64,000 nt of DNA from Fidelibacterota bacterium (GTDB taxonomy: Bacteria; Pseudomonadota; Alphaproteobacteria; Rhodospirillales; Rhodospirillaceae). A program made the translations under genes and the position numbers. The stretch covers positions 1-64,000 of the forward strand of contig CANJRX010000006.1 in assembly GCA_947476895.1 (NCBI GenBank), in the 5' to 3' direction. The notes under the pieces were generated by a model. It ran no database searches, was not told the DNA's origin, and worked only from the letters and a program-made list of their open reading frames with translations. The stretch's first letter is position 1, and every line of letters begins with the position of its first letter. Shown here piece after piece: positions 24,975 through 35,205 of the stretch.

Positions 24975-26009
24975 TTAGGTGTGCGGGCAGTGGCCGAACT
25001 GCGCGGGACAGATGCGTGTGCCCGTCGATGAACACGGCGTGCGCTTGGCGCGCAGGAATTCTGTGAAGCCCGCCAAGGCCTTGATAAACGCCGGATCGGT
25101 GCGCACGGCAGAAAGGCGTGAGAAATGCGGCACGCCGGCTTCCTTGGCTAGATCGCGCATGGTTTCGTCGAGTTCCACAAGCGTTTCTACATGCTCTGAG
25201 ACGAACGATATGGGCACGATGATAATGGGAACGCCGTCTGCGCCAGCGCGGCGGATTTCGCTTTCGACTGGCGGGCCTAGCCACGGCACAGGCGTCACAC
25301 GGCTTTGATAGCAAATCTTCCAATCGAGACCTGCGATGTCCGCGCGCTCCACCACCGCTTTGGTCGACTGCGCCACTTGCCACTCGTAAGGGTCGCCCCC
25401 TGCAATGGTTTTTTCAGGTAAGCCGTGCGCTGAGAAAAGCACGCGCGGTTTGCCATGCGCTTTTGAAGTCTCATACGCGCTGCGCAATTTTTCCGCGGCA
25501 GGACCGATAAAGCCGTCATCAGTCGGATAGCAGCACAACACTTCCATAGGCGTATTGAAGGCTTGGCGTTTGGCTTCCTGCTTCAATGCGGCGAGCGTCG
25601 TGCCGGTGGTGGTGATTGAGAACTGAGGATAAAGCGGCAGCACAACGACGCGCGTCGGGTTGTAAGCTTTCAGGTCCGCGACGACTTCGCGCGCCATGGG
25701 ATGCCAATAGCGCATCAACACAAACACACGCGCATCTTCGGCGAAAGGCTTCGCGACAGTGCTTAAAGCTGCGGCTTGCGCTTCGGTTTCCGGCAAAAGC
25801 ACCGACTTCCCGCCCAGGCGTTCGTAATAGCCTTGAGACTTTTTGGCGCGCAGCGTCGAGATCGTGGTCGCGAACAGCCAGCGCAGCGGCTGGGGCAGGG
25901 GGATGATGTAGGGGTCGTTGAACAGATTGAATAGGAACGGCCGCACGGCCTTCGGACTATCGGGTCCGCCGAGATTGAAAACCACAATAGCAAGGCGGGT
26001 GTCGGTCAC
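24975..26009 (-). CDS. hemH: Ferrochelatase
   Basis: This 344-residue enzyme inserts Fe2+ into protoporphyrin IX, the last step of heme b synthesis. It starts at a GTG (protein begins TDTRLAIVVFNLGGPDS). Active-site His and Glu are visible in LFSAHGLPEKTI and SFVSEHVETLVELD. The frame runs on to 26180, but the first 57 residues are non-conserved and overlap hemA, so the internal GTG is used. It is transcribed divergently from the hemA operon, with 155 nt between starts. It has no N- or C-terminal membrane anchor. Confidence 0.93.
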   Translation of the reverse strand: MTDTRLAIVVFNLGGPDSPKAVRPFLFNLFNDPYIIPLPQPLRWLFATTISTLRAKKSQGYYERLGGKSVLLPETEAQAAALSTVAKPFAEDARVFVLMRYWHPMAREVVADLKAYNPTRVVVLPLYPQFSITTTGTTLAALKQEAKRQAFNTPMEVLCCYPTDDGFIGPAAEKLRSAYETSKAHGKPRVLFSAHGLPEKTIAGGDPYEWQVAQSTKAVVERADIAGLDWKICYQSRVTPVPWLGPPVESEIRRAGADGVPIIIVPISFVSEHVETLVELDETMRDLAKEAGVPHFSRLSAVRTDPAFIKALAGFTEFLRAKRTPCSSTGTRICPAQFGHCPHT

Positions 26010-26073
26010 AGGCGGAAAACCTTCGTCATTTCGATTGCGCGTATATGCCACAGCCTTATGTAGGGCGGATAGC

Positions 26074-26098
26074 GCCAAAATTCTTGGGCCAAAATTCT
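26074..26098. repeat. Tandem direct repeat between hemH and hemA
   Basis: GCCAAAATTCT occurs at 26074-26084 and 26088-26098, 14 nt apart. It sits midway between the divergent hemH and hemA starts and is a candidate site for a regulator shared by both transcripts. No known operator consensus is matched. Confidence 0.45.
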
Positions 26099-26164
26099 GG
26101 GGGTTGCGTGGCCCTATGACATGGCCGTGACATTCGTTAACGCGAGCTATGATATCGAGCGCCC

Positions 26165-27433
26165 ATGAATCGATTCGCATTAATAGGTGCTTCTTATAAG
26201 ACGGCCGGTGTCGAGCGGCTGGGCCAGTTGGCCCTGCCGAAAGCCGAGATCGCCGCGCGCCTGCCTGCCCTGGCTGCCAAAATCGGCGCGCAGGAGCTGG
26301 CCTATATCGGCACCTGCAACCGCGTTGAATTTGTGCTGGCCGGTGATACGCCGCTGGCCGTGCAGTCTTGCCGCGACAAGCTGGGCCAATTGCTCACCAC
26401 CGCACCTCTGCCTGAAACCGAAACCCGGCGCATTTTTCGCGCCTGGACCGATGAAGGCGCCGTCGAGCATCTGTTCCTCGTTGCCTCGGGTCTCGATTCC
26501 GCCCAGGCCGGCGAGCGCGAGATTTATGCGCAAGTGCGTACCGCTTGGACCACGGCGCGTGCCGCAGGCACCTGCGGCCCGCAGCTCGATTACATTTTCG
26601 GTGAAGCTTTGCGCGCTGCACAGGATGTGCATCAACAAGCGGCACGTCCCAGCAACGCCGACTCCCTTGCAAACTTCGCTGTGAAGCGCGCGCTTGAACA
26701 TCTCGGCGATAAACCGGGCCGCATCGCTTTGGTCGGCGTATCGCCCATGACGCGCCACTGCGCGCGCGCGTTCATGGCGCAGAAGATTCCGATGACCATC
26801 GTCAACCGCACTTTGGAACTGGCGCAAGAGTTTGCCGTCGAGGTCAAGGCCGATGCTTTGGCGCTAGAGTTCTTCAGGCAGGACCCTACGGGCTTTGATG
26901 TCATCATTACCGCTGTCGGCGGCGCTGAACCTGTCCTCGACCGCGCCCTTTTGAATAGGCTCGCCGCGACCGGCAAGAACCCGCTGCTGATCGACCTGGG
27001 TGTGCCACCGAATATCGACCCCGAAGCTGCTGATGCCGTGGGTCTGCACCGCGTCGGCATGGATGAAGTGATTGCGGATGCGGCCTCGGGCCGTTCCGCC
27101 AAGCTCGGCCAGCTTGCTTCGGCGCGCATTGTCATCGACGAACATCTGCAACGCCTGCGCAGCGAATATGCCATCCGCGAATCTGCACATATGCTGCAGC
27201 GTTTGACCGCGCAGTATCAGCAGGCGGCGGTGGAAAGCCTGCGCCGTTTGCCGAAGAACGCCGACGAAGAAGCCTTGCGTCAATGGGCTGAAAGTTTCGC
27301 ACGCCGTTTGGCGCATGCGCCGATCAAAGGTTTGCGCGCGTTGGCGGCCGAGTCTGGTCCCGAAGCGGTGCAGGCTTATCTTGAAGGCCTGGAAGACGCG
27401 CTCAAAGACACATCAAAGGAGAAGCTTTCGTGA
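26165..27433 (+). CDS. hemA: Glutamyl-tRNA reductase
   Basis: This 422-residue enzyme reduces glutamyl-tRNA(Glu) to glutamate-1-semialdehyde, the first committed step of the C5 route to heme. The N-terminal catalytic domain has the nucleophile C51 in YIGTCNRVEF. The NADPH domain has a GRIALVGVSPMTRHCARAF-type nucleotide-binding region, and a C-terminal helical dimerisation domain follows. The usual GE-Q-I motif reads GEREIYAQVR. It begins the operon, and its stop overlaps the hemL start (GTGA). Most alphaproteobacteria use ALA synthase instead, so this is informative. Confidence 0.92.
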   Translation: MNRFALIGASYKTAGVERLGQLALPKAEIAARLPALAAKIGAQELAYIGTCNRVEFVLAGDTPLAVQSCRDKLGQLLTTAPLPETETRRIFRAWTDEGAVEHLFLVASGLDSAQAGEREIYAQVRTAWTTARAAGTCGPQLDYIFGEALRAAQDVHQQAARPSNADSLANFAVKRALEHLGDKPGRIALVGVSPMTRHCARAFMAQKIPMTIVNRTLELAQEFAVEVKADALALEFFRQDPTGFDVIITAVGGAEPVLDRALLNRLAATGKNPLLIDLGVPPNIDPEAADAVGLHRVGMDEVIADAASGRSAKLGQLASARIVIDEHLQRLRSEYAIRESAHMLQRLTAQYQQAAVESLRRLPKNADEEALRQWAESFARRLAHAPIKGLRALAAESGPEAVQAYLEGLEDALKDTSKEKLS

Positions 27434-28716
27434 GCACCAACGCCGAACTTTATGAACGCGCCCGTGCGCTGATCCCCGGTGGCGTTAATTCACCCGTGCG
27501 CGCCTTTGGCGCCGTGGGCGGCACGCCGAAATTCCTCACACGGGGCGAGGGGGCTTATATCGTCGACGAGGAAGGGGCCCGTTATCTCGATATGATGTGC
27601 TCGTGGGGACCGCTGATCCTCGGCCACTGCCATCCGGAAGTGATCGAAGTCATCCAGAACAAAGCAGCCCTTGGCACAACATTTGGCGCGCCCTGCCGCG
27701 CCGAAGTGGAATTGGCTGAAGCCGTGGTTGGGGCCTATCCGGGTCTTGAACAGGTGCGCTTTGTGTCCTCCGGCTCTGAAGCCACCATGAGCGCGATCCG
27801 CCTCGCGCGCGGCGCAACGGGACGCGATCTCATCGTCAAGTTCTCCGGCTGCTATCACGGTCACGCCGATCACCTTTTGGTCGCGGCCGGCTCCGGCCTC
27901 GTGACCGCGGGCCAACCGTCGTCCGCCGGCGTGCCGAAAGCTTTCGCTGCGCTTACCATCGTTCTGCCGTTGAATGACGAAGAAAAACTGAAGGCGCTGT
28001 TCGCCGCGCAAGGCGACCGCATCGCCGCCGTGATCATCGAGCCGATCCCCGCAAACAACGGCCTTCTGTTGCAGCACAAAGAGTTTCTGCTGACCCTGCG
28101 CAAGGTGACACGCGATAGCGGCACGTTGCTGATTTTCGACGAAGTCATCTCCGGCTTCCGTGTCGCCAAAGGCGGCGCGGCCGAGTACTACGGCATCACG
28201 CCGGACCTCGCGACCTTCGGCAAGATCATCGGCGGCGGATTGCCGGTGGGCGCTTACGGCGGCTCCAAACATCTGATGTCGCACATCGCACCGGAAGGCC
28301 CGGTTTATCAGGCGGGAACACTTTCGGGTAATCCCGTCGCCATGGCTGCGGGTCTTGCGACCATGCGCATTCTCGACCGCGAAAAAGCTTGGACCAAGCT
28401 CGAAGAACTTGGTGCACTTCTGGAAAAGGAAGTCGGCGCAGCGCTCGCGGACGTCTCCACGCCGTGGAAAGTCATCCGCGTCGGTTCCATCGTATGGCTC
28501 TCGTTCCAAGCTGGTGAGGCCCCGCGCTCGGCTGAAGTTTTGGACCAGAACGTCGGCGCGCGTTTCGCACCCTTGTTCCACGCCATGCTGGATCGCGGCG
28601 TCTACCTGCCGCCGTCAGCGTTTGAAGTGATGTTCCTATCGCTTGCCCACACGCCGGAAGATATTTCGAAGTTTGCGAAAGCGCTGCGCGAGTCCATCCT
28701 GGCAACGGCTGCTTAA
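27430..28716 (+). CDS. hemL: Glutamate-1-semialdehyde 2,1-aminomutase
   Basis: This 428-residue PLP enzyme converts glutamate-1-semialdehyde to 5-aminolevulinate. It has the typical start (ALIPGGVNSPVRAFGAVGG), the SSGSEATMSAIRLARG phosphate region, LIFDEVISGFRVA, and the PLP lysine in ATFGKIIGGGLPVGAYGG. The GTG start overlaps the hemA stop. Length and motif order match the family. Confidence 0.95.
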   Translation: MSTNAELYERARALIPGGVNSPVRAFGAVGGTPKFLTRGEGAYIVDEEGARYLDMMCSWGPLILGHCHPEVIEVIQNKAALGTTFGAPCRAEVELAEAVVGAYPGLEQVRFVSSGSEATMSAIRLARGATGRDLIVKFSGCYHGHADHLLVAAGSGLVTAGQPSSAGVPKAFAALTIVLPLNDEEKLKALFAAQGDRIAAVIIEPIPANNGLLLQHKEFLLTLRKVTRDSGTLLIFDEVISGFRVAKGGAAEYYGITPDLATFGKIIGGGLPVGAYGGSKHLMSHIAPEGPVYQAGTLSGNPVAMAAGLATMRILDREKAWTKLEELGALLEKEVGAALADVSTPWKVIRVGSIVWLSFQAGEAPRSAEVLDQNVGARFAPLFHAMLDRGVYLPPSAFEVMFLSLAHTPEDISKFAKALRESILATAA

Positions 28717-28726
28717 TTAAACGCTC

Positions 28727-29821
28727 ATGATCAACCGTCTCCGCCTCGACCCGACCCGGCTCCTGCATATGGCGATCATATTCTTGCAGGTGTTTTCGGT
28801 CGCCCAGGTGGTGTGGTGGTTCGTAGATCAACGCACCTACGCTGATAACAACGCGAACGAAGTGCGCAACCTCTACACCTACGACATGGTGGCGGCGCAG
28901 AAGCTATCGGCGCTCGGTGCGTCCGCAGAAGAAATTACCGCCATCTTCCCCCATGCGCAGGTTGTGAACGGCGAGGTCACGCTGACCGAGGCCGCGCTCA
29001 CGGATTTGGATGATGCGAAGACCCGTCACGTCAATCAATACGCCTGGGAAAGCGGCTTCTTCCTGTTAGTCCAGGCCTTGGCCATCATGGTGTTGTGGCG
29101 CGGCCTCAGCAGCGAGAAGGCTATCCGCAAGAAGCAAGACAACTTCATGGCCATGGTGTCGCATCAGTTCAAGACACCCATCGCCAGCTTGCAATTGTCT
29201 TTAGAGACCATGGTTCTGCGCCAGGTGACGCCCGAGCGTTTCCAGCAACTCTCGCGGCGCATGCTCGATGATTTGCGGCGCATGGAGAACATGGTCTCCA
29301 AAATTCTCGATAGCGCGCGCCTGGACCGCGGCCGCGTGCAGTTGAACAAAGAACGTCTGTCGCTGGCGGAAGCCGTACGTCACGTCGTGGCCACACTGGA
29401 AGACATCGCGCGGCGAGAGAACGTTGCTTTCGACGTCGAGATCGCGCCCCAGCTTGAAGTGCGCGCTGATCCCCTGGCGGTCGACGGCGTGCTGCGCAAC
29501 TTGATTGAAAACGCCATGTCGGCCATGAAGCCCACCGGCGGCGGCACTGTAACGATTCGCGGAACACGTGCGGGCGACGAAGCGGAGCTCCGCATTATCG
29601 ATACCGGCGTCGGCTTCGAACCCGCGGATGGCCCAAAATTATTTGAAAAATTCTTCCGTATCGATAATCACGGCGGGCGCGACGCGGCGGGAACAGGCCT
29701 AGGCCTTTTCATCGTCCAGCGCTTCATGCATTTTGAGAACGGTCACGTCAAAGCCCACAGCGAAGGCGCCGGGAAGGGCGCGACCTTCACCGTGGCCTGG
29801 CCCACCGCGCAGGAGACTTGA
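28727..29821 (+). CDS. Membrane sensor histidine kinase within the heme operon
   Basis: This 364-residue protein has two membrane segments (about residues 13-33 and 108-126) flanking a 74-residue periplasmic sensor region of no recognised family. The cytoplasmic HisKA domain has the phospho-His H146 in VSHQFKTPIASLQ. The HATPase domain has N box NLIENAMSAM, G1 DTGVGFEP and G2 GTGLGLFIVQRF. It starts 10 nt after hemL and is coupled to the next gene. Its position between hemL and hemC suggests that it senses something linked to heme or redox state. Confidence 0.92.
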   Translation: MINRLRLDPTRLLHMAIIFLQVFSVAQVVWWFVDQRTYADNNANEVRNLYTYDMVAAQKLSALGASAEEITAIFPHAQVVNGEVTLTEAALTDLDDAKTRHVNQYAWESGFFLLVQALAIMVLWRGLSSEKAIRKKQDNFMAMVSHQFKTPIASLQLSLETMVLRQVTPERFQQLSRRMLDDLRRMENMVSKILDSARLDRGRVQLNKERLSLAEAVRHVVATLEDIARRENVAFDVEIAPQLEVRADPLAVDGVLRNLIENAMSAMKPTGGGTVTIRGTRAGDEAELRIIDTGVGFEPADGPKLFEKFFRIDNHGGRDAAGTGLGLFIVQRFMHFENGHVKAHSEGAGKGATFTVAWPTAQET

Positions 29822-29826
29822 GCGTT

Positions 29827-30555
29827 ATGAGTGAAGCTGCACAAAGCCGCATTCTTGTGGTGGAAGACGATCTCCACCTGGCCGAAGGCATGGCCGAGAA
29901 TATGCGCGCCGAAGGTTATGCGACCGACACCGCCCACGATGGCCAGTTAGGCCTCGAGATGGCCTTGGTGGGTGATTACGACCTGATCGTGCTTGACGTG
30001 ATGCTGCCGCAGATGGACGGCTTCGAAGTCTGCAAGGCTCTCCGCGCGCAAGGCAAAAGTACGCCGGTGTTGTTCCTCACCGCGCGCGGCGATCCGCAAG
30101 ACCGCGTGCGCGGCCTTGAAGCCGGCGGCGACGACTATCTGACCAAGCCGTTCCACCTTGATGAATTCCTGCTCCGCATCCGCGCCATTCTGCGGCGCTG
30201 GGAATGGTTCAAGAGTTCGCTGGCCAAGCCTGCGACCAGCGCGACGCTTACGTTCGCCGGCAACGAAGCCAACTTCCGCACTTTCCAGGCTCATGCTTGG
30301 GATGGCACCACACACGACCTGACCGAAAAAGAAGCCATGATCCTGAAAGTGCTGGCGGAGCATCCCGGCGAAGTCGTCACGCGTGATGATTTGCTGGAAA
30401 AGGTCTGGGGTTACGAGGTTTATCCCTCGACCCGCACGGTCGATAATTTCATTCTGCGCTTGCGCAAGATTTTTGAACGCGATCCTCACGAACCCCGTCA
30501 CTTCCTGACGGTGCGCGGCGTGGGCTATCGCTTCCAACCGGAAGGTGACGCGTGA
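29827..30555 (+). CDS. OmpR-family response regulator within the heme operon
   Basis: This 242-residue protein has a receiver domain (phosphoacceptor D57 in LIVLDVMLPQMDGFE, acidic pair in VVEDD, Lys in TKPFHLDE) and a C-terminal winged-helix DNA-binding domain (DLTEKEAMILKVLAE through RTVDNFILRLRKIFE to VRGVGYRF). The ATG at 29827 is 11 nt from GGAG; a TTG at 29818 overlaps the kinase stop. Its own stop overlaps hemC (GTGA). It is the obvious partner of the preceding kinase. The target genes are unknown, but heme genes and itself are candidates. Confidence 0.93.
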   Translation: MSEAAQSRILVVEDDLHLAEGMAENMRAEGYATDTAHDGQLGLEMALVGDYDLIVLDVMLPQMDGFEVCKALRAQGKSTPVLFLTARGDPQDRVRGLEAGGDDYLTKPFHLDEFLLRIRAILRRWEWFKSSLAKPATSATLTFAGNEANFRTFQAHAWDGTTHDLTEKEAMILKVLAEHPGEVVTRDDLLEKVWGYEVYPSTRTVDNFILRLRKIFERDPHEPRHFLTVRGVGYRFQPEGDA

Positions 30556-31496
30556 GCAAAACGTTACGTATTGGTACGCGCGGCTCGGCGCTGGCCTTGT
30601 GGCAGGCCGAAGAAACGTCGCGCTTGATCAAAGCGCTGCCGGGTGCGCCGGCTGTGGAACTCGTCATCATCAAAACCCAAGGTGATTTGCAGCAGGAAGT
30701 CCCTCTGTGGCAAACACCGGGCAAAGGTTTCTTCACGGCCGAGTTGGACCGCGCTCAGCTCGCGAACGAAGTCGATATTGTTGTGCATAGCCTAAAAGAC
30801 CTCGCGACTATTCTCTCGGAAGGCCTCGCGCTGACGGCTGTACTAGAACGCGAAGATCCACGCGACGCGCTGGTGACGGCGACCGGCGGCGGCCTCGCTT
30901 CGCTGTCCAAGGGGGCTCGCATCGGCACCAGCAGCTTGCGCCGCCGCGCCTTCCTCGCGCACACACGCCCCGATCTTCAGCACATGGAACTCCGCGGCAA
31001 CGTGCCCACGCGCCTGCGCAAACTCGACGAAGGTCAATTCGAAGCTATCATTCTCGCTTGCGCTGGGTTGAAGCGCCTCGGCATGGGCGACCGCATTTCG
31101 GCGGCGCTGCCGACGCGCGATTTCCCCAATGCTGTAGCCCAAGGCGCCATCGGCATCTGCACGCGCGAAGGTGACACTGAAACGCAGAAGTGGGTTGCCC
31201 CGCTCAATCACGTCACAACGCGCATTGCCGCCGATGCCGAACGCGGCCTTCTGCGCCGCCTTGAAGGTGGTTGCCAGGTGCCGGTTGGCGCACTTGCGAC
31301 GGTAGAGGGCGGCAACGTCACGCTCTATTCCGCCGCCGCTAATATCGACGGCTCGGACTTTGTGGCGGCGGAAGGCTCGGCGCCTATCGCCGAAGCCGCA
31401 GCCCTCGGCGTACGTGTCGCCGAAGACCTTCTCAGCAAGGGCGCATCACGCGTCCTCGATAAAGCCAATGAGCGCCGCCAGGCGACGCATACCTAA
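30552..31496 (+). CDS. hemC: Hydroxymethylbilane synthase (porphobilinogen deaminase)
   Basis: This 314-residue enzyme links four porphobilinogens into hydroxymethylbilane. Motifs seen are RIGTRGSALALWQA, VHSLKDLAT, IGTSSLRRRA, LRGNVPTRLRKL and the dipyrromethane cofactor Cys in LEGGCQVPVGA. The GTG start overlaps the response regulator stop by 4 nt. No hemD follows, although hemD often does. Confidence 0.95.
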   Translation: MSKTLRIGTRGSALALWQAEETSRLIKALPGAPAVELVIIKTQGDLQQEVPLWQTPGKGFFTAELDRAQLANEVDIVVHSLKDLATILSEGLALTAVLEREDPRDALVTATGGGLASLSKGARIGTSSLRRRAFLAHTRPDLQHMELRGNVPTRLRKLDEGQFEAIILACAGLKRLGMGDRISAALPTRDFPNAVAQGAIGICTREGDTETQKWVAPLNHVTTRIAADAERGLLRRLEGGCQVPVGALATVEGGNVTLYSAAANIDGSDFVAAEGSAPIAEAAALGVRVAEDLLSKGASRVLDKANERRQATHT

Positions 31497-31507: not shown

Positions 31508-32539
31508 ATGACCGCTGCTTTGCCTCCGTTCCTTGCCGCCTGCCGTCGCCAACCCACGGCGCATACACCCATCTGGATCATGCGCCAGGCTGGCCGTTAT
31601 TTGCCGGAATACCGCGCGGTACGCTCAAAAGTCGGCTTCACCGAACTCACGCGCTCGCCGGAACTGGCTTGCGAAGTGACGTTGCAGCCCATTCGCCGCT
31701 TTGCATTAGATGCGTCTATTATCTTCAGCGACATCATGGTGCCCATCGAAGGCATGGGCGTGGCGCTGGAATACGCGCCGGGTCCAGTCATCGGTGAACC
31801 TGTGCGCACCATGAAGCAGATCGATGAACTGCGGACGTTGGTGCCCGAACGCGATGTGCCTTTTGTGATGGAAGCCATCAAGATGACGCGCGCCGGGCTG
31901 CCTGCCCATGTGCCGCTGATCGGTTTTGCCGGATCGCCCTTCACGTTGTTCTCCTATCTCGTCGCGGGTAAACCCTCGAAAGAATTCTCGGTGCCGCGCG
32001 CCTTCGCCCAGGCCGAGCCGGAAATCTCCGCGCGGCTCATGGAAAAGCTGGCCGACGCCATGATCGTCTATTTGCGTGCGCAAGCGGGTGCAGGTGCGCA
32101 AGCGCTGATGTTGTTCGAATCCTGGGGCGGTCTGCTCGGCCCCAGCGACTTCGCCCGCATCGCTTTGCCGCCGGTCAAACGCATTATCGACGGCCTCAAA
32201 GACCTCGGCGTGCCGCTGATCTATTTCGCTAACCAATGCGGCAGCAACCTCGACTCCATCGCGACCTTGAATGCCGACGTCGTGGGCCTCGATTGGCGCA
32301 CGTCCCTGGGCGGTGCCCGCAAAATCCTCGGACCCAATAAAGCCATCCAAGGCAACCTTGATCCTGCGCACCTGTTTTCCTCGCCGGACAACCTGCGCAA
32401 GCGCGTGGATGAAGTGTTCGCCGATGCGGGTCCTGGCCCGGGTCACATCTTCAACCTCGGTCATGGCATTTGGCCCGAGACCGATCCCGACTCCGTCGCT
32501 AGGTTGGTAGACTACGTGCACGAACGTTCGGCCAAATAG
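31508..32539 (+). CDS. hemE: Uroporphyrinogen decarboxylase
   Basis: This 343-residue enzyme decarboxylates uroporphyrinogen III to coproporphyrinogen III. Typical motifs are IWIMRQAGRYLPEYR, IIFSDIMVPIEGMG, GFAGSPFTLFSYLV and FNLGHGIWPETDP. It starts 11 nt after hemC and continues the heme operon. Confidence 0.95.
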   Translation: MTAALPPFLAACRRQPTAHTPIWIMRQAGRYLPEYRAVRSKVGFTELTRSPELACEVTLQPIRRFALDASIIFSDIMVPIEGMGVALEYAPGPVIGEPVRTMKQIDELRTLVPERDVPFVMEAIKMTRAGLPAHVPLIGFAGSPFTLFSYLVAGKPSKEFSVPRAFAQAEPEISARLMEKLADAMIVYLRAQAGAGAQALMLFESWGGLLGPSDFARIALPPVKRIIDGLKDLGVPLIYFANQCGSNLDSIATLNADVVGLDWRTSLGGARKILGPNKAIQGNLDPAHLFSSPDNLRKRVDEVFADAGPGPGHIFNLGHGIWPETDPDSVARLVDYVHERSAK

Positions 32540-32548
32540 AGAAGTCAT

Positions 32549-33394
32549 ATGGATAACGCAGCCGACGGCCCTGAAAATGGTTTCTCCGCCGAAGCGGTGA
32601 AGTACTACCGCGACCTGCAAGACCGTATCATTGCGGCTTTTGAAGAGATCGACAGCGGCGGCAAGTTCGAACACAACGACTGGACACGCGAGCCCGGCCA
32701 TCGCCTTAAAGGCGGCGGCCGCATGCGCGTTATGCGCGGCAAGGTGTTCGAGAAAGTCGGCGTCAACGTCAGTCATGTCTGGGGCACGGCCTCAGAGCAG
32801 GGCACCGCACAGATGCCAGGCGCGAAAGAATCCGGCGGGCGTTTTGCCGCTTGCGGCATCTCGCTGGTCACCCACATGCACAACCCCTTTGTGCCGACGG
32901 TGCATATGAATATCCGCTGTATGGCCACGAGCAAGATGTGGCTGGGCGGTGGGGCCGACCTCACGCCCACGTTCCCGTTTGACGACGACACGAAAGATTT
33001 TCACCAGGCCTTAAAGGCGGCCTGTGATGGTTACCGCGGCGACGCTTACGAGAAATACAAAAAGTGGTGCGATGAATACTTCCATCTACCCCACCGGCGC
33101 GAACCGCGTGGTGTGGGCGGGATTTTCTTTGATGACCTCGCCAGCGGCGATCTCCCCGCCGACTTCGCGTTCCAACAGAGCGTTGGCGAAGCGTTCCTGG
33201 AAATCTATCCGAAGATCGTGCGCCGCCGCATGGACATGCCCTATACCGAAGCCGACAAAGACAAGCAGCTTTACAAGCGCGGCCGCTACGTCGAATTCAA
33301 CCTTGTCTACGACCGCGGCACGAAGTTCGGTTTTGCGACGGATGCCAATCCCGAAGCTTACTTGATGAGCATGCCGCCGGTCGTGAAGTGGTGA
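32549..33394 (+). CDS. hemF: Oxygen-dependent coproporphyrinogen III oxidase
   Basis: This 281-residue enzyme uses O2 to convert coproporphyrinogen III to protoporphyrinogen IX. It carries the family blocks RMRVMRGKVFEKVGVN, NPFVPTVHMNIRC, WLGGGADLTPTFPF, REPRGVGGIFFDDL and GRYVEFNLVYDRGTKFG. It starts 9 nt after hemE. An aerobic enzyme fits an oxygen-respiring organism; no hemN is in the window. Confidence 0.95.
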   Translation: MDNAADGPENGFSAEAVKYYRDLQDRIIAAFEEIDSGGKFEHNDWTREPGHRLKGGGRMRVMRGKVFEKVGVNVSHVWGTASEQGTAQMPGAKESGGRFAACGISLVTHMHNPFVPTVHMNIRCMATSKMWLGGGADLTPTFPFDDDTKDFHQALKAACDGYRGDAYEKYKKWCDEYFHLPHRREPRGVGGIFFDDLASGDLPADFAFQQSVGEAFLEIYPKIVRRRMDMPYTEADKDKQLYKRGRYVEFNLVYDRGTKFGFATDANPEAYLMSMPPVVKW

Positions 33395-33398
33395 TGTG

Positions 33399-33836
33399 AT
33401 GGAAACGATGTATCCCTGGTTCAAGGCGCTGCACATCATCGCCGTCATCTCATGGATGGCGGGGTTGCTGTACTTGCCGCGCCTCTTCATCAATCACGTA
33501 GGCCTTGCGCCCGGCTCGGAAGCTTCGACAATGTTGAAGGGCATGGAATCGCGGCTGATGCGCTTCATCATGCGCCCGGCCGCTGTTGCTACATTTCTAT
33601 TAGGCGGCGCGCTGGTGTCCACGCCCGGCATCGTGGATTGGTCCATGGGTTGGATCTGGCTAAAGCTTGCCTTCGTGCTGGGCCTGGGCGCCAGCCACGG
33701 CTACATGGAAAAGTGCATCAAAGCATTTGCCAATGACGCGAACACGAAGCCAGCGCGCTTCTATCGCATCCTCAACGAAGTCCCGACCTTGCTCATGATC
33801 GGGATCGTGATCCTGGTGGTTGCGAAGCCGTTCTAA
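33399..33836 (+). CDS. hemJ: Protoporphyrinogen oxidase, HemJ type
   Basis: This 145-residue integral membrane protein has about four helices and the HemJ pattern: WFKALHIIAVISWMAGLLYLP with its conserved His, then LPRLFINH, RLMRFIMRPA, GWIWLKLAFVLGLGASHG and a final YRILNEVPTLLMIGIVI. It oxidises protoporphyrinogen IX to protoporphyrin IX. It starts 4 nt after the hemF stop. It is the last gene of the operon and converges on the Sel1 gene after 13 nt. Confidence 0.9.
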   Translation: METMYPWFKALHIIAVISWMAGLLYLPRLFINHVGLAPGSEASTMLKGMESRLMRFIMRPAAVATFLLGGALVSTPGIVDWSMGWIWLKLAFVLGLGASHGYMEKCIKAFANDANTKPARFYRILNEVPTLLMIGIVILVVAKPF

Positions 33837-33849
33837 CAGTGGCGTGCCG

Positions 33850-35205
33850 CTACTTCCCGCAATCTTTGTAGTTTGAAGCTTTGCATTTGTCGGCGAGCAT
33901 TTGGATGTGCTCTCGTGCCTCAATGGGGAACCGTTGAAGGACTTGCGCGACCGCTTCGACAGAGCGGGGTTCACCTAGGCCTGCGGCAATCACTAACCAT
34001 ACCGCCGATTGAGCCTCGTCTTTTGGTATGCCATCGCCAAGGTAATACGCGACCGATAGTGAAAACTGTGCCGGACCATAGCCTTGCATGGCGGCGCGCC
34101 GATACCATGTCACGGCCTCCTTAGGCTCCTTGGGAACACCCAGGCCTTTGAAATGCATAATGCCGAGGGAATACTGGCCTTCGGGATCATTTTGCTCCGC
34201 GGACTTTCGGATCCACTTCAGTCCCTCTTGCACATCTGCGGAAACGACCGTGCTATCAACGTAAGCCCGGCCCACCTGACTTTGTGCATAGCTGTCCCCA
34301 TTTTCGGCCGCGCGCTTGTACCATTTGAAGCTCTCGGCTTCGTCTTTAGTGACGCCAAGACCGTTGGCGTAGGCCGTGCCCAATGCGCGTTGCATTTTCG
34401 CATCGCCCGCTTCCGCAGCCTGGCGGATGGCAGCAATTGCATTTTCGTCCCGATATTCGGTCCTTGGTTTGCGCACTTCCGCTAGCCGTTCTTGCGCTTG
34501 TGCATAGTTTTGCTCAGCAGATAGTTCCAGCCAACGTTCGGCTTGCTTTTGATCCTTCTCGACTCCAGCACCTTGAAGGTAGGCTTCTGCGAGCGTGTAT
34601 TGCGCAACTTTGTCCCCGGCCGCCGCTGCGCGCCGATACCATTCTATTGCTTGCGCAGGATCACGCGCGACACCCTCGCCGCGTACGTAAGCTTGTCCCA
34701 GAGCCATCTGAGCGATTGGGAAGCCCTGCGCAGCCGACAAGCGATACCATTCTACGGCTTCGGCCGCGTTCTGCCGCACGCCCAAGCCGATGCTGTAGAG
34801 GTAGCCAATGCCATACTGTCCGATGGGATCGCCCGCATCAGCGGATAGGCGAAACCATTTCAATGCTTCTTTGCCATCGGGCGTTACGTACTTACCGTCC
34901 CCGACGCTATACCAAGAGCCCAGCGTATTTTGAGAAAGGCGCTTGCCTTGAGTTGCCGCCAGCTGGAACCATTTGAGGGCCGCCTGGTAATCATGCGGAA
35001 CATTCTCCCCGTCACTCAAGGCTACCCCAGCGATCTGTTGGGCTTCTGGGTCCCCCGATTCAGCTAGGGGAAGCGCGAGCTGCAGCGCACGCTTGGCGTC
35101 GTTACGCGCAAGTGCGTCTTAAGCATCTTCGATATCGCCAGCTAGGGCCGCCGGCGTAACGAACAACGTCAGCAGTAAGATCGCAATCTGCGGCTTCTTG
35201 ATCAT
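33850..35205 (-). pseudogene. Secreted Sel1-repeat protein broken by an in-frame TAA
   Basis: The reading frame from the ATG at 35205 encodes a signal peptide (MIKKPQIAILLLTLF, ending in PAALA). It then meets TAA at codon 29 (35121-35119) and continues in the same frame for 422 codons of Sel1-like repeats (AAxxGxxxAQxxLGxxYxxGxGVxxD type, about nine units) to the stop at 33850. The residues on both sides of the TAA fit the usual N-terminal Sel1 pattern (GDIEDA, then DALARNDAKRALQLALPLAE). A Tyr codon (TAT or TAC) changed by one base could explain it. Restart at the TTG at 35019 would give a repeat protein without a signal. A base-calling error is also possible. Confidence 0.8.

Follow-up and report, generated by a model that had tools for sequence, protein, structure and literature searches.

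The histidine kinase and response regulator encoded within the heme biosynthesis operon of the 64-kb stretch of DNA analyzed here (referred to as the window) very probably form a HemKR-type two-component system, located in an operon that it activates through a hem-box preceding hemA. Judging from the sequence, our confidence is high for the target of the pair and moderate for activation. HemKR has been described in Leptospira. In L. interrogans, the pair Hklep/Rrlep (HemKR) lies between hemL and hemE of a hemACDBLENYH cluster (PMC2266917). Phosphorylated Leptospira HemR (P~HemR) binds the hem-box, TGACA-N6-TGACA, upstream of hemA, hmuO, and other genes (PMC11426443, which cites a 2014 paper for the definition of the box). 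The relevant features of the window are as follows:

24975..26180, - strand: hemH, ferrochelatase, divergent from hemA (Pfam Ferrochelatase)
26117..26132, + strand: hem-box TGACATGGCCGTGACA, predicted regulator site, 32 nt before the hemA ATG
26148..26153, + strand: -10-like element TATGAT, 15 nt past the second half-site GTGACA, with the hemA ATG 11 nt further
26165..27433, + strand: hemA, glutamyl-tRNA reductase (Pfam GlutR_N and GlutR_dimer; NCBIfam TIGR01035)
27430..28716, + strand: hemL, glutamate-1-semialdehyde aminomutase (NCBIfam TIGR00713, 550.5 bits, cutoff 527.3)
28727..29821, + strand: HemK-like membrane histidine kinase (Pfam HisKA and HATPase_c; alignments; structure model)
29830..30555, + strand: HemR-like response regulator of the OmpR/PhoB family (Pfam Response_reg and Trans_reg_C)
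30552..31496, + strand: hemC, hydroxymethylbilane synthase (Pfam Porphobil_deam)
31508..32539, + strand: hemE, uroporphyrinogen decarboxylase (ORF read by eye; matches of relatives at the same place in the operon)
32549..33394, + strand: hemF, coproporphyrinogen III oxidase (Pfam Coprogen_oxidas)
33396..33836, + strand: hemJ, protoporphyrinogen oxidase (Pfam UPF0093; NCBIfam TIGR00701, 148 bits, cutoff 138.05)

The operon (hemA-hemL-HK-RR-hemC-hemE-hemF-hemJ, where HK and RR denote the kinase and the regulator) lies entirely on the + strand, and by ORF coordinates its neighboring genes overlap or are separated by no more than 11 nt. hemA and hemL overlap by 4 nt, 10 nt separate the end of hemL (28716) from the kinase ATG (28727), and the regulator stop codon (30553-30555) overlaps the hemC GTG start at 30552 in a shared GTGA; the gaps further downstream are 11 nt (hemC-hemE), 9 nt (hemE-hemF), and 1 nt (hemF-hemJ). 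The kinase stop codon occupies 29819-29821, and the regulator starts at ATG 29830, with TTG 29818 as an alternative start. The preliminary description of this DNA had placed the pair between hemL and hemC, and its coordinates, 10-nt gap, and GTGA overlap all proved right upon analysis of ORFs, Pfam, and NCBIfam matches. Across the operon, promoter-like matches in a consensus scan were at chance level (3 versus 2.2), as were terminator-like matches (9 versus 9.1). The true start of the divergent hemH is probably downstream of the ORF start, as homology in many relatives begins near 26009 (in several, near residue 58). The hemA product scores just under the TIGR01035 cutoff (199.4 versus 209.55 bits), and automatic annotation may therefore overlook this branch of hemA. 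Facing the end of the operon, a Sel1-repeat protein is encoded at 33850-35019 on the - strand.

The window was scanned for TGACA-N6-TGACA, the motif given in PMC11426443. Its only exact occurrence in the 64 kb is at 26117-26132, in the hemH-hemA intergenic region, while matches with up to two mismatches number 20, below the 34 expected from shuffles. The box is exact in 19/19 genomes of the genus, the window's own included, at -48 or -49, leaving 32 to 33 nt before hemA. Within the genus, the kinase was found in 17 of the 18 other genomes (G001-G018), in one case split over two contigs, and it also occurs in one sister-genus genome. Only G005 lacked it, an assembly of 71% completeness in which the contig breaks off about 1.2 kb beyond hemA.

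Beyond the genus, the kinase alignment was used to search species genomes and picked up 79 loci: 20 of the window kind, 52 of a gamma kind, and 7 ordinary kinases (L122-L128); gamma and other class or phylum labels follow the record titles, some of which say only Proteobacteria. Titles for the window kind vary (Rhodospirillaceae, Alphaproteobacteria, Candidatus Marinimicrobia, and others), and the group is probably alphaproteobacterial, given that 5-aminolevulinate synthase is present in most relatives from its order. The 52 gamma kinases are 43 to 50% identical to the window kinase over most of their length, and their loci retain the order hemA-hemL-HK-RR-hemC up to the contig ends. Among these, 37 loci include hemA and at least 250 nt upstream, and all 37 carry, 47 to 51 nt before hemA, a box with an altered first half-site (TGAC or TGAT, the last A missing); compared with the Leptospira box, 34 have one mismatch and 3 have two. 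The class of the window was surveyed in 289 genomes, scoring at most the best 5 to 29 candidates per genome, as in all kinase searches here, so that odd members could escape (controls included). The kinase was retrieved at an E value of ≤1e-40 in two of these genomes, the window's own and G131, the latter with hemA-hemL-HK-RR-hemC-hemE and an exact box. For the gamma class (369 genomes), the centre genome alone gave a full-length match, and 11 others matched over the kinase core. In the gamma order, 39 of 246 genomes matched at an E value of ≤1e-70 and fell by score into two sets of 18 and 21. In all 21 loci of the weaker set (L294-L314), the order is hemA-hemC-..-hemL-HK-RR-hemE wherever the contigs extend that far; for 15 of them the hemA upstream region is available, and the box there is exact in 14 and carries a mismatch in the other. 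A full-length kinase was also found in a further phylum, that of a MAG titled delta proteobacterium, in 1 of 188 genomes (G828), within hemA-hemC-hemD-hemB-hemL-HK-RR-hemE and with an exact box; none of the other 70 genomes in its class matched at an E value of ≤1e-70. Occurrence of the arrangement in only one genome had been named as counterevidence; the pair recurs beside heme genes in the genus, the gamma order, G131, and G828, partly in the hemL-hemE slot of L. interrogans.

Not every related pair was retained. Twelve pairs from the phylum of G342 (L181-L190, L193, and L194), whose regulators are 41 to 51% identical, were taken as other systems because no match to a window heme gene was present within 9.9 to 17 kb and no box was found at ≤1 mismatch. 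L191 (G803), a distant pair (30% and 38%) located near hemL and lacking a box, was likewise not counted as HemKR; it is perhaps another heme-linked system. At L065 (7770-9071), where neither hemA nor hemL was found in the stretch examined, the kinase directly follows a divergent hemH and an exact box precedes the kinase, such that box and regulator may have been relocated together.

To compare box and pair across the HemKR lineages, 79 distinct hemA upstream regions were drawn from 147 loci, omitting 15 without a hemA match and 10 with a short upstream and merging identical upstreams; in 2 of the 79 (G011 and G005), the kinase falls on a different contig or past the point where the contig stops. 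The box is exact in 37 of these regions, has one mismatch in 39, and has two in 3, whereas 15,800 shuffled upstreams gave 1 exact box and 34 at ≤1 mismatch. For genomes without a HemKR hit, 39 control hemA regions (10 from the window's order and 29 gamma) gave no box at ≤1 mismatch and 4 at two, with hemA starts set by alignment and control rows L221 and L222 aligning only from residues 33 and 95. In the same comparison, 20 of 21 HemKR-lineage regions were exact and one had two mismatches. Tuning of its own operon by the pair, as suggested in the preliminary description, has strong support: the box before hemA tracks the presence of the pair in distant lineages. These data also bear on the reading that the pair is a passenger that uses the operon promoter and controls other genes, with the box belonging to another OmpR-family regulator. 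Operons can carry regulators along, and the form of the box is typical of OmpR/PhoB proteins. However, because box and pair co-occur, with pair, operon, and box together in the window genus, two gamma clades, G131, and G828, and with the box at ≤1 mismatch missing from 39/39 hemA regions without the pair, we regard the passenger reading as most improbable.

A second question concerns which of the two divergent genes the box serves. In most of the genus, it lies between hemH and hemA, as would be expected if the pair mainly served hemH, or hemH and hemA equally. Yet the box is kept 32 to 33 nt before hemA in L041, L043, and L044, where hemH was not found beside hemA, and no match to hemH was present in the examined stretch of the gamma loci that carry a box. 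We therefore consider hemH highly unlikely as a main or equal target, although it may share the hem-box with the operon.

The layout of the hemA promoter points in the direction of activation. The second half-site, GTGACA, would occupy the -35 place, 15 nt before TATGAT, an element that is partly conserved in the window and 17 relatives (variants include TGTGTT and TATGCT). The consensus promoter scan did not report this promoter because its spacer range of 16 to 18 begins above the 15 nt present here. We infer that the hemA message is nearly leaderless. The pho box bound by PhoB has two tandem half-sites, spaced by 11 bp, where the -35 element would be, and the hem-box half-sites share this spacing and placement; we take the box and -10 layout to be that of a PhoB-like class II promoter. 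Unlike the PhoB system, the half-site sequence is different, the genes are for heme rather than phosphate, and the regulator scores far under the cutoff of the NCBIfam PhoB equivalog, TIGR02154 (168.6 of 296.2 bits).

In L. biflexa, P~HemR activates hemA and represses hmuO, both through the hem-box, and 5-aminolevulinate or a product thereof switches HemK to a phosphatase that dephosphorylates HemR (PMC11426443). Earlier L. biflexa mutants had hemAEL down 2- to 10-fold (PMC2266917); in a deletion mutant, the hemA operon was not significantly affected, and other regulators act there (PMC11426443). Repression of hmuO through the hem-box indicates that the sign of control can depend on position, and the phosphorylated regulator of the window might accordingly bind the hem-box as a repressor of the operon, acting, for instance, as a brake that responds to heme overload or redox state. 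We consider such a brake unlikely: the second half-site would sit at the -35 place before the -10-like element, rather than over the -10 or the start, which fits activation, and it is activation that P~HemR exerts on hemA in L. biflexa (PMC11426443).

On the preferred reading, activation by a HemKR-type pair, the kinase would autophosphorylate on H146 and pass the phosphate to D57 of the regulator, the phosphoacceptor by motif. A dimer of the phosphorylated regulator would then bind the tandem TGACA half-sites, 11 bp apart, at 26117-26132, and, with the second half-site at the -35 place, 15 nt before TATGAT, binding would recruit RNA polymerase much as PhoB does. The whole of hemA-hemL-HK-RR-hemC-hemE-hemF-hemJ would thereby be switched on, including the genes of the pair itself. 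As a heme-pathway signal builds up, the kinase would become a phosphatase (through T150) and the operon would fall silent, the net effect being a feedback loop on 5-aminolevulinate (ALA) synthesis. Candidate signals put forward in the preliminary description are heme, a precursor, and redox state.

The kinase has Pfam HisKA and HATPase_c domains and no Pfam match before residue 137. Its layout comprises a first transmembrane segment (TM1) at about 11 to 33, a loop at 34 to 104 (about 71 residues), and a second segment (TM2) at about 105 to 128, with two long membrane helices in the structure model and limits judged by eye. H146 is the phospho-His and T150 the phosphatase Thr by motif, an H-x3-T arrangement as in HemK, where the residues are H98 and T102 (PMC2266917 and PMC11426443); among the aligned relatives shown, two (L294 and L180) have Ser at the T150 place. 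No NCBIfam model reached its cutoff for either protein among the 25 best listed (of 76 for the kinase and of 101 for the regulator), and the PhoR equivalog, TIGR02966, gave the kinase 152.4 of the 334.2 bits needed. The regulator tree places 29 hem-linked regulators in one group with support of 98/100, subject to long-branch caveats. In the kinase model (mean pLDDT 79.6, pTM 0.53), TM1 and TM2 each form part of a long helix, and a small alpha/beta insertion lies between the two helices. The sensor region had been described as being without a recognized family, and this holds: Pfam gave no match, and the best 50 of 776 fold-search matches were histidine kinases and related proteins, with no known sensor fold among them.

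Structure prediction of the sensor region had also been proposed, and it bore out the lack of a known sensor fold among those matches; the loop itself turned out to be the least conserved part of the kinase. In an alignment of 61 kinases from five groups, which holds at least one pair that is seemingly a single contig (L081 and L315), loop 34-104 has the highest mean entropy (2.21 bits), compared with 1.60 in TM1, 1.11 in TM2, 1.17 in the phosphoacceptor domain, and 1.65 in the catalytic domain. P75, A56, and Y50 are conserved within the variable loop. W31, E108, F111, F112, and Q137 are invariant, the first four at the membrane edge, and W107 (97%), P75 (97%), D34 (93%), and Y105 (92%) are nearly so. 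We infer that the kinase senses at the membrane edge.

Several known systems provide a frame for these observations. The preliminary description had called such an arrangement of heme genes rare; a precedent exists: PMC2266917 reports the homologous L. interrogans system between hemL and hemE and mentions Bdellovibrio as a further heme-linked case ("data not shown"). As in Leptospira HemKR, the membrane HisKA kinase of the window, with its two TM segments, adjoins an OmpR/PhoB regulator; the pair lies inside a heme cluster (as in L. interrogans), a hem-box precedes hemA, and the H-x3-T motif is shared. The slot differs, being hemL-hemC in the window and hemL-hemE in L. interrogans, although gamma clade 2 and G828 share the latter. 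The loop also differs, at about 71 residues in the window and 32 in L. biflexa HemK, where loop replacement was harmless and a kinase minus its whole membrane part failed to complement (PMC2266917); as the loop is dispensable there, we did not count its size as defining. Furthermore, the window lineage belongs to another bacterial class than Leptospira, and one possible TonB-type receptor was seen among 20 other boxes. The two-component system of Bdellovibrio bacteriovorus is likewise linked to heme genes but is known from one remark (PMC2266917). We base kinship with the Leptospira and Bdellovibrio systems on the order of the genes, the type of domains, and the DNA site in common.

A further comparison is HssRS of Staphylococcus aureus, in which a heme-binding site comprising two conserved phenylalanines and two arginines has been proposed for HssS at the membrane/outer interface. 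Both kinases are HisKA, are heme related, and have two conserved phenylalanines at the membrane edge. In contrast to the window pair, HssRS drives heme efflux rather than synthesis, and where the HssS site uses two arginines outside the membrane, the window kinase family has an invariant Glu and Trp. Among the matches listed from open-licence literature, HemKR studies were confined to Leptospira and one Bdellovibrio remark; neither HemKR in the present bacteria, nor the wide conservation of its site, nor the invariant cluster turned up there. The HemKR kind itself is already known.

In this lineage, the pair accompanies an apparent switch from ALA synthase to the glutamyl-tRNA route. Glutamyl-tRNA reductase is present in 18/18 other genomes of the genus and ALA synthase in one (G018). 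Among six genomes of sister genera, G020 has the reductase and the pair and no ALA synthase, four have ALA synthase without the reductase, and G024 has neither at the limits used. The window hemA is 39 to 47% identical to hemA of gamma HemKR loci, versus 22 to 31% to ordinary gamma hemA (46 genomes). The distribution of the two routes and these identities together suggest that operon and regulator came in jointly. The regulator and hemL trees agree on gamma-1, gamma-2, and window groups, and L191 falls inside the window group in the hemL tree; both trees contain long branches, strong support is limited to a few forks, and they leave the direction of transfer unsettled. Plasmid-borne spread was considered and rejected: hemC gave 84 records in a plasmid collection, all at <60% identity, and a kinase search gave 150 records, with a single match that spans 80% or more of the query (26.8% identity). 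Leptospira HemK and HemR were absent among the plasmid-search matches listed. In other families of the order (G025-G040; L215-L224), 12 of 16 genomes have ALA synthase together with a glutamyl-tRNA-reductase-like protein that is 22 to 28% identical to the window hemA; two of these proteins were checked and are glutamyl-tRNA reductases by Pfam. It would be unusual for a bacterium of this kind to have two routes to ALA.

A broader reading of these data, possible but on balance doubtful, is that HemKR, the hem-box, and the C5-pathway operon make up a portable self-regulating cassette, which would have been passed between distant groups and would have replaced ALA synthase here, with the ligand sensed not by the loop but by a cluster of W31, E108, F111, and F112 (plus W107, D34, and Y105) at the membrane exit. 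Such an aromatic and acidic cluster could form a cage for the ammonium group of 5-aminolevulinate or, alternatively, a membrane porphyrin pocket.

Exact boxes elsewhere in the genomes were also counted. In 31 genomes, there are 1 to 6 per genome, for a total of 91 versus 23 for a reversed-pattern control. The excess is as large (36 versus 9 reversed) in 12 genomes drawn from the order's other families (G025-G036), in which a full-length kinase was not found, indicating that the meaning of the box lies in its place and not in its number. A survey of further targets, of the kind of hmuO and exbB/exbD, used exact boxes and examined 20 of the 36 others in the genus (10 genomes, incomplete): 14 lie inside mechanically called ORFs and 6 outside, no recurrent heme target was present, and no heme oxygenase was seen beside them. 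In the window genome (L255), an exact box coincides with the start of an ORF that encodes 2-oxoglutarate dehydrogenase domains; it was set aside as a further shared target, having no parallel among the 20. A single case in L260 (G011; 1533-1821) has an exact box 288 nt before an ORF resembling a TonB-dependent receptor, and Leptospira HemR controls a receptor of the TonB type. The gamma form of the box, TGAYNRTTYNRTGACA, a pattern drawn from the gamma loci, was searched for in 12 gamma genomes: 9 have a single copy and 3 have two, and its reversed control occurs once in all 12 together.

With the pair and its site present in further groups of bacteria, HemKR would be a wider way of regulating heme synthesis. 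The residues that are invariant across about 60 diverse kinases point to where the HemK signal may be read, and through them the question of the HemK ligand becomes directly testable.
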